Source: Amoeboaphelidium occidentale (lineage: Eukaryota; Aphelidiomycota; Aphelidea). Taken from it: a DNA stretch of 56,453 nucleotides. Shown piece after piece: positions 13,918-19,720 of the stretch. Both the position numbers and the translations under genes were made by a program. How positions within the stretch are numbered: position 1 is the stretch's first letter; every line of letters starts with the position of its first letter. Below the pieces are notes generated by a model that was given only the letters and a program-made list of their open reading frames with translations, ran no database searches and was not told the origin of the DNA. Location: positions 1 to 56,453 of the forward strand of contig JALGPX010000067.1 of the NCBI GenBank assembly GCA_023515795.1, given 5' to 3'.

Positions 13918-14649
13918 ATGAATTATCTGTCAATTATTTCTTCTTTATTGATGGTATCATCAACTGGTGCTTTTCCTATGGAATACGTGGTTGGCGACAT
14001 TGAAACTGACTGCACTCCGACACCTATTGCTGATCAATTCATTAGTTTTCCTGCTATTTCGGCCAATCAGAATGCACTTCCGGCTACAACACCTGCAGGA
14101 AATCTCGCTGCACCCACAGTTTCAACTTCAACTAGTACATCAGTAGCAACGTTTTCGATGGCTACTCCAATAATAGGCCCGATTCGTACTGAGGATTTCG
14201 GTTCTGCAACTATGCAAACAAGAACAACAATTATAATACCTGCTGCATCTTTACCAATTATACCACCCGTTGCAACAAGAGACACCGGAGTTGTCCAAAC
14301 TCCAGCTAATACTATGCCGGCATCACCGGTTTCTACGACTATTCCAACTCCAACTGCTGTTTCAAATCAAATGCCTCCAGCACAAAACCAAGCATCCGGA
14401 ATCATTCCTCCTGTTGTCGTAGGTATTCCAACCGCGACAATAATTCAACTTGGTAGCTATCCAACAAGTACTGTTTCTCTGTATTCAGAACACGAGAAAA
14501 AGAAAAAGAAGAAGCATATGAAGAAAAAGAAGCATCGCCATAATGGTTATTTGCAAGTGGGATCTGGAGCAAACATACCTGGAGTACCATCATATATATC
14601 CAATAATCAGAAAGGGCATTCACGACTGAACTTGACCATTTCGTTTTAA
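13918..14649 (+). CDS. Secreted Thr/Pro/Ala-rich protein with Lys-rich tail
   Basis: 243 residues with a signal peptide (SIISSLLMVSSTGAFP). Most of the mature protein is low complexity, rich in Thr, Pro, Ala, Ser and Ile (runs such as STSTSTSVATF and TPTAVSNQMPPA), as in O-glycosylated surface proteins. Near the C-terminus is a striking basic run (EHEKKKKKKHMKKKKHRH), then an uncharged tail ending LNLTISF. No catalytic domain is visible. The basic run could bind anionic polysaccharide. The upstream region carries the words TGATAGG and GGTTGCACAA, also seen upstream of the proline-rich gene at 24507. Confidence 0.6.
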   Translation: MNYLSIISSLLMVSSTGAFPMEYVVGDIETDCTPTPIADQFISFPAISANQNALPATTPAGNLAAPTVSTSTSTSVATFSMATPIIGPIRTEDFGSATMQTRTTIIIPAASLPIIPPVATRDTGVVQTPANTMPASPVSTTIPTPTAVSNQMPPAQNQASGIIPPVVVGIPTATIIQLGSYPTSTVSLYSEHEKKKKKKHMKKKKHRHNGYLQVGSGANIPGVPSYISNNQKGHSRLNLTISF

Positions 14650-14777
14650 TAAACAGGATTAGCGTGTTCTTTATATTACATCGATCCATGCTGCATAAAC
14701 AAATTTGATTTCCGTTAAACTATGTTATGCATGTTCAACCTTTCCCCCGATCTGCGAATATTTCGCGAGCTATGCTG

Positions 14778-14836
14778 AAAAAAGAGTTACTCGACTGCCG
14801 ATCCGGTTCAGATTCCGTGACAGTCGGCCTTTTTTT
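14778..14836. ncRNA. Candidate hairpin/T-run RNA next to the Fanzor 3' end
   Basis: Just beyond the Fanzor stop lies an inverted repeat: CGACTG at 14792-14797 pairs with CAGTCG at 14821-14826, with an inner CGG/CCG pair around an 8-nt loop. T-runs flank it on both strands: T7 at 14830-14836 reading plus, and T6 on the minus strand (14783-14778). TnpB and Fanzor guide (omega) RNAs are encoded at or just past the 3' end of the nuclease gene, which is this position. No RNA family was recognised; the call rests on position and foldability only. Confidence 0.3.
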
Positions 14837-14853
14837 CGTTTTTGCGACATTTT

Positions 14854-16523
14854 CTAGCGCTTTTTCTGTCGAGAGCTTCTTCTCAAGCCCTCTTGCTTGT
14901 CCTTGTCTTTCTCTTTCGGGTTGCGCCCTTTGATACTACCCTTCTTGACATCTTGAACAGGTTCTTCTGTCGCTTCTTCTGTTTCATCATCAGGAGGCTT
15001 GCACAAATATTCAGGACGCTCACCCTTCTCCAACATTGCGGATAATGCAGCACACATATTATCAGCAGCCAATATATCTCTGTGAAATACCACCTTGCAT
15101 TTGGGACATTGTTTCGCTCTCATGGATAGTGATTCTGTAAAATCGTGACAGCGAACACATTTCTGAGAAGTGAAATACTCATCAACACCAAGTATAGTAA
15201 GACCCATTGGTTTTGCTTTTCTGACAAAATATTTTAAGAAGGATGTATGAAAGGAGCCGTTTGAATCAAATTCGCCAGTTCCAACTCCAACATATATGCG
15301 CTTGTTACCTTTGACTTTCTGGTTCGGTTTCAAGCCAACCATAGAAATTAATGCATTGAAGACGCGATCCATTTCTCTTTGCATTGCACAATTGTATTCA
15401 AAACTTCGCTTTCGAACTGCATGAGAGTTGTAGAATTGTGATAATGTTGAGTCCCTCTCCATTATGCGGTTGAAGTACATTTCATCGGGCTCATCTGTAC
15501 CTTGTTCAACAACACTATTTTCAGCGTCCCTCAGCAGCTTGTTTTGATCGTCCATCGTGGTCTTATTGAGCCAGTTTCTGTACAGACGGCCAAGCTCGCC
15601 AAGGGCAGTTTTCTTCACAGCCACGATTTTCTTGCTGCCATCAGGGAGCCACGACACAGCGCCAACAGTATATGTTTGTCCAAGATCTAATCCCAAAATT
15701 ATATCAGTTGATTTGTTAAACTCAGGTTCTTTCGCTGCCATTGGTGGTCCTGTTTCATTTTTGACTTTTTTTGCATGCTTATCAATAACATTGACCAAGA
15801 GACTGAAACCATCCGTGCTAAAAGAAGTCATAAGCACAAACCTCTTCCGCATATCTTGGTTTCCTATGAAACAGTAAGATCTGTAGTCTTTTGATCTCAG
15901 GCCGAACACACTTTGCAAAACCATTCCTTTGCAGTCGTGATTTAACTTAAAATGAGTGATTTTACCATTCTTAACCAAAAAACCAGCCAGATACTTTTTG
16001 GAATCTTCCATGCCAATTATACTAAGCAAAAGGTCTTCGGTGAGATCTAGTGAACCGTGTGTTGGTGAATACTGTGGAAACGACTTGAACCGCTCCGTAG
16101 CTGGCAGCATTTCATTCATTGCTGTAAACAATCTTACTATAGAGTACGTATCTAAATCACCAGCCTTGTAGAGAACTTCATTCGTAACTTCTTCTTCATC
16201 CTTTTCTGTCTCGTCTCTCTTTCGCTTTTTTGTAGTTTTCTTAGCACTAGAGGCATTATCTCTCACAACCACGTTCGATACTGGCTCATCTTAATGTTAG
16301 TTAAATCTTCAATACCAAATCTAATCTTACCATTAGTTTTACTTGACGATTGCCCGGTTGTGTCAATTTCTACTTCTACGTTCTTCTTCTGTTTCTTACC
16401 CTTATTCAGAATGGTTTGGTCAATCATGTTTATAAGCTTGTCTACTTCTTGTCCCTTTTCTGGGCAAATTTCCTTAACTTTGGCAGCAAGAACTGTAGAC
16501 GAACCGATAAAGTGAAGTGCCAT
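14854..16523 (-). CDS. Fanzor (eukaryotic TnpB-like) RNA-guided nuclease domain
   Basis: Two exons (16523-16331 and 16289-14854) around a 41-nt intron. The C-terminal half holds a RuvC/TnpB nuclease. Counting from the GTG at 16272: LGLDLGQTYTVG supplies the first Asp (196); the zinc ribbon is CVRC (372/375) with CPKC (389/392); HRDILAADN supplies the last Asp (399). The usual RuvC-II Glu position (YVGVGTGEF) is altered, and E365 in VDEYFTSQKC sits where Fanzors carry their displaced Glu. Upstream lies a basic, acidic-flanked linker (KKTTKKRKRDETEKDEEE). The C-terminus is very basic (RRSSRQKKR). Fanzors are RNA-guided DNA nucleases linked to transposons. The stretch before 16523 is open in frame right up to the XPG stop, so this may be the C-terminal part of one larger protein. 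Confidence 0.85.
16290..16330 (-). other. Intron in the Fanzor gene (41 nt)
   Basis: Begins GTAAGA, ends TTAAG, with a perfect CTAAC branch word 5 nt before the terminal AG. Removing it places the upstream frame (ending SSSKTNG) in frame with the nuclease frame (DEPVSNVVVRDN); without it the upstream frame stops at 16263 and the downstream frame has no ATG. Confidence 0.8.
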
Positions 16524-16534
16524 GATTCTATCCA

Positions 16535-16564
16535 CTGATTGGCCGTGATAATGAAGAAGTTAAC
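16535..16564 (-). other. Possible 30-nt micro-intron, or a true stop, between XPG and Fanzor parts
   Basis: The XPG frame ends at a TAA (16562-16560), but the same frame is open again immediately and runs into the Fanzor exon. An interval beginning GTTAAC and ending CAATCAG is exactly 30 nt, contains the TAA, and leaves the frame unchanged. The 5' site is atypical for this window (others begin GTA) and no branch word is close to the end, so splicing here is unproven. Confidence 0.35.
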
Positions 16565-18320
16565 AGTAAATGAACTCAACATATTCTGACTCTTTTTCGG
16601 TAAGCGTGATTTTGAGCTTGTTGTCATCCATAAATGTTCTTACAATCTGGTATAATCTTGGACCATTTTTACCAAAGTCCCCTGGCTTGATTAAGTAGGC
16701 AATGAGGTTGCCCCAGTACTGCTTGCCACCGCCAACGTCAATTAAAAAATCATCATCAGTGTCCTTAGAAGCCGTGCTTTGTTTAAAGTAAAGCGCTGTA
16801 ATGATAACAGCAGCGTATGTCGCCCTATTAATCAAGGCGACCACACCTTGAATTCGATCCAATAAAGTTGATTTGAACTCTTCAGGTAAACATGATTTTC
16901 TAAGACAAGCCTTTAATGTGCCAAGTTTCCAGGTTTTAGTCTCAAATTTTTTCTTTAGACCTTGCATATTTTTTGTAGGTTGTGTATAAACAGCTGTTTT
17001 TCGCGGCTTGTCAGACTTGATGGATCGAGTAGCCATATTAGATTTCTTGCGCCTCGGCGCCTTCTTTTTCTTTCCATTTGTTTTTGCTTTAGGTTTAGTT
17101 TTTCGTTTGCTTTGAGGATTTGAAGAGTTACTAGGCGATATCGTTTCTTTACAGTCCTTGCCGTCTGCTTCATGCTCAATAATCAAACTTAATTTAGTCT
17201 TGTCTAGCAGCTTTGGTTTGTATCTTCCATACGTAGAATTAACAAGAGGGCTAAACCTATTCCGTTGCCCCTTAAACACTAGGTGTTTCAATTGTTCTAA
17301 CGATCGAACTTCAAATGCAGCTTTTTTTTCGGCTTTCCAGTTTTCATACAGCTTGTTGAACTCCTCAATTTTTAACACAATTTCTTCATACTCTTCCTGA
17401 ATTGGATGTGTTATGCATACTGAACACTGTTCTTCTTTGTGATTCACAAACACGTTAAATGCTGTATCAAAGTGATTGTTGATCTGGTTTATCTCAGTAA
17501 AAGCATTGACGATTTCCTTTGTAGTCATAGTCTTATTTGCATCACAAAGTTTTATGAATTGATGGACTTTACTCAATCCAAATCCTTTAAAATTGTCGCT
17601 ATAATCATTCCCAGATAATAATCCTAGAGCAATCATTCCATAACTTGATATATTCAAGCGTGTCAAGATTTGAGTTCGGTTTGCAAGTCTGAAATGAAGC
17701 GATTGATAGTCGAATTTGTTGTTGAAACGAGGTCTTGCAAACAAAGGAGCATCGTGAATGACCATGTCGGAATCTCCGGAGACAACAACAATGGAGTTTC
17801 GTTTGTCATCGTTCAATTCTGAAACCAACTTCGCAATTGCGACATCTGCCTCAAACGGTGCGATTACAACTCTTAATCCTATTGATTGTAATGCAACTTT
17901 TAAGGATTCTGTGTGAAATTTGCTAATACGAAAGCAGCTCTTCTCTAAACTATGCAAGCTTTTCCACTTAGACTTTTTTAGCTTTTGGTGAGGCTTCAAG
18001 TTATGAACCAGATCTTCTAGACGTTTAATTTTTGAGTGTCTTGAAGCATCGCGCATACAATGAGTGTGATGCTTTTCTTTTGATCTCGCACCATCTAGGT
18101 AAAATACAACGTTCAATCCTTCAAACAATAATTTCATACAATTAGCAAGCCCATTGTATTCTTGCGTCATAATGAAGTGCACGCATAAGTTGTAGAAAGA
18201 ACCATAGGGATCAACAAGAACCTCGCGATTCTTGTAATTGGCTCGAAATTGATTAAGTTTCAGTTCTTCCGGAAACAAATTATGCGTTTTAGCGAACGCA
18301 GAGAATCCTTTAATACCCAT
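16560..18320 (-). CDS. XPG/FEN1-like structure-specific nuclease, possibly fused to Fanzor
   Basis: 586 residues from the ATG at 18320. The N-terminus is XPG-N (MGIKGFSAF, VDPYG with D37, YLDGARSKEK with D76). XPG-I is clear: GLRVVIAPFEADVAIAKL (E157, D159) and VVSGDSDMVIHD (D183, D185), then LLSGNDYSD (D239) in the helix-hairpin part. All acidic metal ligands of the family are present. Residues about 385-450 are a Lys/Arg-rich linker. The last ~120 residues (LKACLRKSCLPEEF, INRATYAAVIITAL) are not XPG-like and resemble the helical N-terminal region that precedes RuvC in large Fanzors. The next in-frame sequence after the stop is the Fanzor exon, so a single ~1131-residue XPG-Fanzor protein is possible. 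Confidence 0.85.
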   Translation of the reverse strand: MGIKGFSAFAKTHNLFPEELKLNQFRANYKNREVLVDPYGSFYNLCVHFIMTQEYNGLANCMKLLFEGLNVVFYLDGARSKEKHHTHCMRDASRHSKIKRLEDLVHNLKPHQKLKKSKWKSLHSLEKSCFRISKFHTESLKVALQSIGLRVVIAPFEADVAIAKLVSELNDDKRNSIVVVSGDSDMVIHDAPLFARPRFNNKFDYQSLHFRLANRTQILTRLNISSYGMIALGLLSGNDYSDNFKGFGLSKVHQFIKLCDANKTMTTKEIVNAFTEINQINNHFDTAFNVFVNHKEEQCSVCITHPIQEEYEEIVLKIEEFNKLYENWKAEKKAAFEVRSLEQLKHLVFKGQRNRFSPLVNSTYGRYKPKLLDKTKLSLIIEHEADGKDCKETISPSNSSNPQSKRKTKPKAKTNGKKKKAPRRKKSNMATRSIKSDKPRKTAVYTQPTKNMQGLKKKFETKTWKLGTLKACLRKSCLPEEFKSTLLDRIQGVVALINRATYAAVIITALYFKQSTASKDTDDDFLIDVGGGKQYWGNLIAYLIKPGDFGKNGPRLYQIVRTFMDDNKLKITLTEKESEYVEFIYC

Positions 18321-19720
18321 TAATTTTTGATATATAGGGACTCAGTTAAGCTGTTGTTGGTAAAGATCTTTCGCAAGTTCTGTATTGTCAGCAGATTGAG
18401 GTAGTCAAGAACTATCTTTCTTGAAGCAATTATCTGTTATGGCAAAGACAGAGCTTTGGAAGAGAAGATAAAAATATCTTTCTTTCAATGATCATTGCGT
18501 TCAAAGAGGTCTATTTGGGAACCACCAATCAGTAACCAGGCAATTGCACTTCTCCAATGTGATCTTGCACATAGAACTGCTGGGTTACCTGCATACACCG
18601 TATTGAAAAAGAACTCCTGTGAATTTTATGTGGTTAACAGGACGGATAGTTGAAACTGCATCATGTGTGATTCGGTTGCCAAGAACAAATAGATTTAATT
18701 TGCAATTGGAAGAATATCGAGAGAGCTTGCTCTAACATTATAGAGACCATGGTCTATATTGTCGGTTAACGGTAAAAAGCTTATCCGATGGGTTTTTCTT
18801 TGCTTCAAAGAGCCCGACGGGCGTTTCCAACAGCCATTTCTTATGCTTTACGCAGCAGAGTAATTGGTTCTTCCGTTCTCTTTGCTTATCGTGTTTTTTT
18901 CTAGTGCCTGACTAATGCATGAGTTGTTTTCACAGTATGGCTCGAAAGGATACCATAAAACAATTATGATCAATTAACGATCTTCAAAGCCAACCGATTG
19001 TTACTAGAAATTATGATCCAATGCTCAAACCATATAGAAGTTGCGTTGAAAGCTGAGCAAATTACGGCTAGATGGACAAAGAAAGGTATTGTAGCTGCAG
19101 TCAACATTGTGGTGCATGTGATCTTCGTGAATGTACAAGATTTACGGTCTTCTCATGTAACACTGTGTTTTAACGTGGAAAACCTTTAGTAAATCGGTGC
19201 AAATAAAGCAGGCAAACTCAACTTCTTTAAGATATCCTGAATCATACTGCTTCATCTTGATTACAAGAAAAGGTTTATGATTTCACAGAAGAAATGTGAA
19301 TTGCTTCATTCAAGGCAACGCTATGCGCAGATTTTCCAGCGAATGAGCCATCGCACGGAGATACAATAAAATAACATGTGAATGTATTGTGAGAAGAACA
19401 GATTGGATAAGAATCCGATACGTTGATAAAGCAAATGGTGTTTTCAAGAGTTTCAAAAGCGTTCGTGTGCCTTGATGACAACAACGGGTATAAGTTTAAA
19501 GTGTTGCGTAGCCGCTCAGTTATAATGCAATACAGAAAATGAACATTAACGCGTTTTTTAATTCTTCGTACACATTGTGCATGTCCTGTATTCATTATTC
19601 TCTAAATGTGGGATCCTGTGTATCATTGCGGAAACCATGTTTCGTGTTCTTATAACAGCATACAGGAATAATTTTATCTCTTCTGTTTCACGGTACATAG
19701 GATTCTACTGATCTCAACAT
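18321..19720. other. Gene-poor stretch
   Basis: About 1.4 kb upstream of the XPG start. Open frames are short and overlap in several frames without recognisable content. A small GC-rich inverted word (CCCG-ac-CGGG) sits near 18812. I found no tRNA, no terminal inverted repeat matching the region 3' of the Fanzor gene, and no clear promoter. Confidence 0.4.

Follow-up and report, generated by a model that had tools for sequence, protein, structure and literature searches.

An ancestral fusion of an XPG/EXO1-type nuclease to a TnpB/Fanzor-like nuclease in a dispersed gene family of the aphelid Amoeboaphelidium occidentale

We analyzed a 56,453-nucleotide stretch of DNA (contig JALGPX010000067.1 of assembly GCA_023515795.1, referred to here as the window) from Amoeboaphelidium occidentale, whose genus NCBI places in the Aphelidiomycota; aphelids are parasitoids of algae. 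On the minus strand of the window, from 18320 to 14854, lies a two-exon gene in which an XPG/EXO1-type nuclease domain is followed by a TnpB/Fanzor-like RuvC nuclease. Comparison of copies across the genome indicates that this XPG-Fanzor-like fusion is real and ancestral, and it documents a fused reading frame, conserved active-site residues, constraint on the protein, and dispersed copies with sharp right ends. The reading that we favor, at a probability of about 0.5, is that an aphelid mobile family encodes one two-nuclease protein, in which the XPG/EXO1-type domain is joined through a basic linker to the TnpB/Fanzor-like part; the latter would make an RNA-guided break and the XPG domain would act at the R-loop or on flaps, with the element being kept or spread.

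Exon 1 of the window gene begins with an ATG at 18320, and its codons 1 to 300 (17421 to 18320) make up the XPG/EXO1-type domain, as assigned by a match to PF00867 (XPG_I) at 17604 to 17879 and by a profile alignment with EXO1 and FEN1. Codons 301 to 586 (16563 to 17420) encode a basic linker and a helical region and are followed by an in-frame TAA at codon 587 (16560 to 16562). As the original prediction had stated, the XPG-like open reading frame (ORF; 16560 to 18320, 586 amino acids) closes with this TAA and the same frame is open beyond it, in a 90-amino-acid ORF (16263 to 16535). The remainder of exon 1 (16331 to 16559, codons 588 to 663 plus one base) is 84% identical at the protein level to a copy on contig C197. 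It is followed by a 41-nucleotide phase-1 GT..AG intron with a CTAAC word (16290 to 16330) and by exon 2 (14854 to 16289), which encodes the RuvC and zinc ribbon region, matches PF07282 at 15058 to 15246 (43.2 bits; cut-off, 26.3), and ends in a stop codon at 14854 to 14856.

We searched the 11.3-Mb genome, which is possibly incomplete, with each half of the gene and then read the frames. The window-type XPG family was found at nine loci, on the window contig itself (C146) and on contigs C197, C129, C119, C38, C5, C189, C11, and C188. The RuvC exon directly follows the XPG part at six of these nine, a recurrence that is more than chance, so we rejected the idea that the two halves are chance neighbors. 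The other three loci are uninformative about RuvC: the C38 copy lies at a contig end and the C5 copy runs into a gap of N characters, both breaking off only after the start of the linker, and the C189 copy has a palindromic rearrangement. The C119 copy, composed of 646 codons plus one base, a 35-nucleotide intron, and the rest, has no stop in 1157 codons. Exon 1 is equally long in the window and C197 (1990 nucleotides), with one stop each, at codons 587 and 645, respectively; in the C129 copy, two stops interrupt the XPG part and are followed by a run of N characters with a change of frame. An intron of 35 to 41 nucleotides occupies one and the same alignment position in the window, C197, C129, and C119, bearing out the intron originally predicted for the window, and it is in phase 1 in the three of these copies that have an unbroken exon 1. 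The C129 copy has been deposited as one 1047-amino-acid hypothetical protein that spans both halves and is spliced at the shared intron, in a model that also omits stretches of the XPG part.

The pair C11 and C188 is divergent, with about 25% identity to the first alignment row in the XPG part and 28 to 29% in the RuvC half, and has the same order of parts. There is no intron between the presumed helical part and RuvC in this pair (576-amino-acid ORF, L041:749-2476), and duplications at these loci, together with frame breaks in the XPG part, leave no single unbroken frame from XPG to RuvC. The helical part of C11 is colinear with C119 exon 1 at a weak level (27.7% identity over 112 residues, E = 0.12), and the genome search match for C11 covers residues 382 to 545 with one stop inside (E = 2.1e-5). 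Because the helical match is weak, the independent support from C11 and C188 comes from gene order together with the XPG and RuvC matches.

Several loci show further structure. At L041 (C11), L043 (C13), and L050 (C189), pieces of the element are repeated in tandem or as palindromes, in some cases next to N characters; these repeats may be real rearrangements or assembly artifacts. Two 3'-partial copies, L045 (inside contig C46) and L046 (at the end of contig C141), start at the same element base, which may mark where a shorter repeat unit begins. Approximately 600 nucleotides before the start codon are 95 to 96% identical in C119, C38, and C5, as against about 80% between C119 and C38 over a longer stretch that includes coding sequence; by this likeness, the 5' flank looks recently shared.

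The TAA at codon 587 is not conserved. It is private to the window copy, with a sense codon in C197, C129, and C119, and in these three copies a continuous helical stretch is read through at this place, in agreement with the prediction that the split falls inside one fold. The 30-nucleotide micro-intron (16535 to 16564) proposed to join the two parts was rejected; its bases are coding, in a gapless alignment, in C197 and C129, and the micro-intron is unneeded and would remove conserved residues. What survives of the predicted two-nuclease protein is thus an ancestral single XPG-Fanzor-like protein, as represented by C119 and the deposited C129 model, without the micro-intron. In the 76 codons past the TAA, the window and C197 differ at 6, 7, and 24 sites at codon positions 1, 2, and 3, respectively, a third-position bias indicating that the frame there was coding until recently. 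Since the TAA is private and the frame beyond it is still coding-like, the window copy is lightly decayed and its architecture ancestral; judged from these alignments, it is a recently disabled member of the family with one nonsense codon.

Constraint at the protein level is strong. Between the window and C197, the ratio of nonsynonymous to synonymous divergence (dN/dS, or omega; Nei-Gojobori) is 0.25 for codons 301 to 450 and 0.18 for codons 451 to 663 in the linker and helical part, and 0.24 and 0.13 in exon 2. In the XPG part, dN is 0.41 and dS is saturated. Synonymous divergence between these two copies decreases toward the 3' part of the gene, suggesting that the copies are mosaic.

The XPG_I match in the window scores 27.7 bits against a curated cut-off of 24.9, and this cut-off is passed by seven of the nine loci, with C11 and C188 absent from the list; the Pfam search returned no N-terminal XPG model match in the window protein. 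The acidic metal ligands are kept, as predicted: the seven acids D37, D76, E157, D159, D183, D185, and D239, along with Gly2, are invariant across five aligned copies, and D76, E157, D159, D183, and D185 are also invariant in a wider seven-row alignment, in which C11 and C188 do not reach D37. A profile made from the seven XPG rows recovers chains of EXO1 and FEN1, the best at E = 1.2e-12, and the XPG acids align with EXO1 from position 52 onward; we take D37 to be equivalent to an EXO1-type acid. The FEN1 equivalog cut-off is not reached (fen_arch, the archaeal FEN1 model; 47.1 versus 351.95 bits). C157 carries a separate and better XPG_I match; it is one of four further XPG_I places (C157, C145, C105, and C51), around none of which a PF07282 place was found within 16 kb. 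In the A. occidentale database protein P0003, a third XPG-like type, 38% identical to C11, lies ahead of a C119-like XPG domain; this double XPG may be a chimera, a tandem, or a gene-model error.

In the RuvC half, D211, E380, D414, and three of the zinc cysteines do not vary across seven rows; the fourth zinc cysteine is present in the XPG-bearing rows and has been lost from the XPG-less C185. PMC10711439 gives as the Fanzor fingerprint a DPG in RuvC1, near exclusive to Fanzors, and a glutamate located six residues ahead of the zinc finger. The shifted glutamate is present (DEYFTSQKC in the window, C197, C129, and C119; EEYLTSQMC in C11 and EEYLTGQMC in C188), as is a zinc ribbon between RuvC2 and RuvC3, where PF07282 is above its cut-off. 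RuvC1, however, reads DLG or DMG in each of the six copies with an XPG part and DVG in C185, whereas it reads DPG or DPN in the four canonical Fanzor1 copies from the same genome that we compared. The original Fanzor label therefore holds for the shifted glutamate and zinc ribbon and fails for RuvC1, which in the window is DLG rather than DPG; by these motifs, the RuvC half is not a textbook Fanzor, having one published fingerprint and lacking the other. In a 13-row tree, for which the program warned that long branches join between the two groups, the XPG-bearing clade splits from the canonical DPG/DPN copies at 100/100; the C145 row, lacking the end motif, was excluded, the XPG-less C185 was counted under the XPG label, and RuvC1 was trimmed at a wrong start in the Lobosporangium row, making the placement of that row unreliable. 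Zinc ribbons of the TnpB/Fanzor type are abundant in the 11.3-Mb genome, with 142 PF07282 places, 84 of them above the cut-off, so the XPG-bearing copies are a small minority. Five other XPG-less RuvC loci (C46, C76, C141, C13, and C154) are truncated or at contig ends. Upstream of RuvC on C145 (L044:2931-3236), two scraps resemble the first 9 to 22 XPG residues at nonsignificant levels (E = 0.19 to 0.94) and may be what is left of an XPG part that was deleted.

Downstream of the window gene, an 80-nucleotide tail (14781 to 14860) that begins at, and overlaps, the stop codon is common to six copies of the window subfamily and ends abruptly before unique DNA, from which point the copies diverge. 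According to PMC10432273, an omega-RNA derives from the end of the transposon and its guide lies in the 3' flank, so the unique flank right after the tail (14756 to 14780, a length chosen arbitrarily) is a candidate guide; we infer that the tail and flank are a candidate omega-RNA scaffold and guide, with the tail also marking the putative right end. No Rfam match up to E = 1 was found in window positions 14000 to 19500. In a second group of copies, subfamily B, the tail of each of the five loci read closes with a 20-nucleotide palindrome and GTTGATT, and several right ends are 95 to 98% alike to that of C119. Sharp ends of their own are also seen in C11/C188 and in C185/C154/C92. The left end of subfamily B, which carries a hairpin and was located at 46 places in the genome search, has TTTAT just before CGCGCAGAG in 23 of 27 copies read, and this TTTAT may be a target motif or part of the element end. 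At least 12 of 16 aligned left-end places belong to short elements that share a right end. These short dispersed elements (L070-L085, on C7, C200, C89, C203, C145, C16, C12, C88, C69, C194, C166, C156, and others) share the subfamily B hairpin left end, several overlap weak PF07282 matches, and they may derive from other Fanzor elements. Comparison of copies yielded no left end for the window subfamily; a clean break at the ATG was considered and dropped, because C189 is palindromic and divergence at that place is close to saturation in the other pairs. No target duplication was recognized at the copies.

In the favored two-nuclease reading, the 3' tail and unique flank would serve as omega-RNA, the TnpB-like half would open an RNA-guided R-loop at a matching site and cut with its RuvC, and the tethered XPG domain would cut the R-loop border or trim flaps. 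The outcome would be a committed break, and repair from an element-bearing copy would keep or spread the element. This reading is supported by the recurring order of parts, the open C119 copy, the shared intron place, and the coding pattern past the TAA; by omega of 0.13 to 0.25 where dS is unsaturated, the retained active-site residues, and a tail followed by unique flank; and by the sharp ends in three further groups and a Cas12a paper (PMC7286691), according to which purified XPG cleaved an R-loop on its 3' flank. Four observations weigh against it: three of the four full-length copies examined contain stops, omega is not measurable in the XPG half because dS is saturated there, the database relative P0003 carries Asn in place of D239, and same-clade RuvC parts on C185 and C145 have no recognizable XPG part in the 2.3 and approximately 2.9 kb of upstream DNA searched. 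We advance more tentatively the broader proposal that a distinct eukaryotic TnpB lineage, marked by the shifted glutamate plus DLG, is a natural two-nuclease RNA-guided enzyme, in which XPG would act on its partner's R-loop, recognition would be separated from cutting or trimming, and spread would occur without a transposase of its own.

The main rival accepts the fusion and the RNA-guided cutting by the TnpB-like half but assigns XPG to transposition, where it would stand in for a classical transposase and process hairpin ends or intermediates of excision and replication. Hairpins at both ends of subfamily B and the TTTAT before its left ends would fit such a role, as would the failure to find a Y1 transposase: PF01797 (TnpA), the only transposase family searched for, matched 6 of 14 control genomes but nothing in this genome, which is possibly incomplete, at E values up to 1. 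The same left end, however, occurs in many places on short elements without XPG, so the mover may act in trans, and the window subfamily has no recognized left end; we consider this role improbable, though it is the best placed of the alternatives. A slightly less probable explanation is that the whole family is decaying, that all copies are relics of a once-active fusion, and that the open copy is open by luck. The original prediction had named a decayed copy with many disabled relatives as evidence against it, and stops are indeed common among the full-length copies and other copies are rearranged or truncated; against this, the architecture is shared, C119 is open over all its codons, omega is low where measurable, and the close likeness of several subfamily B right ends to C119 points to recent spread. 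That the halves are two separate adjacent genes, produced or controlled jointly, and that the TAA is a genuine terminus, fits the closing of the window XPG ORF and its reopening at a later ATG/GTG but is very improbable, given three relatives with no stop at this place, a coding pattern that runs on past it, and a deposited protein spanning both halves.

Searches of protein databases returned 13 distinct proteins (2, 3, and 9 matches per query), eight of them named A. occidentale; eukaryote sampling is thin. P0004, 64% identical over 53% of the query, spans the end of the XPG domain and the linker and stops within the helical part, and P0012 (Lobosporangium) and P0008 are protein models without an XPG domain, their upstream DNA not being in view. 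Scans with two short patterns, which would miss distant kin, gave 41 and 22 matches in viral contigs and 50 in prokaryote genome contigs, none confirmed. Literature searches, to which subscription papers and most preprints were out of reach, found no published XPG-Fanzor fusion, and none is described in the accessible parts of PMC12719977 or PMC7286691. TnpB/Cas12-type enzymes rely on one RuvC site for cutting, and a conserved XPG fusion would add a second active site at the R-loop; if real, this site would be testable in vitro and could help control break ends. The fusion would also bear on the persistence or spread of Fanzor-like elements without a transposase, and the family adds a eukaryotic clade that has one Fanzor fingerprint and not the other, which bears on Fanzor origin.

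The XPG half resembles the XPG/RAD2 superfamily (EXO1, FEN1, RAD2, and XPG) in its XPG_I region, its EAD, DxD, and GxDY acids, and its N-terminal MG, and differs in being joined to a TnpB-like nuclease. IS200/IS605 elements are bounded by hairpins and carry a short fixed motif next to the left end; subfamily B resembles the TnpB elements of this group in both traits and differs in its eukaryotic host, its XPG fusion, and the lack of a detected Y1 transposase. As in the Mucor MCi-2 Fanzor1 elements (PMC3627910), the nuclease-bearing 3' part is kept, the 5' part varies, and no inverted terminal repeats are recognized; those elements have 11- to 12-bp target duplications, of which none was recognized in the family described here, and the accessible text on them mentions no XPG domain. 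With Fanzor1 and Fanzor2 more generally, as portrayed in PMC10432273, PMC10711439, and PMC3627910, the family shares a split RuvC D-E-D around a zinc ribbon, the shifted glutamate, introns, a eukaryotic mobile setting, and a conserved right-end tail, and it differs from them in having DLG or DMG in place of DPG, an N-terminal XPG-type nuclease, and a separate clade.

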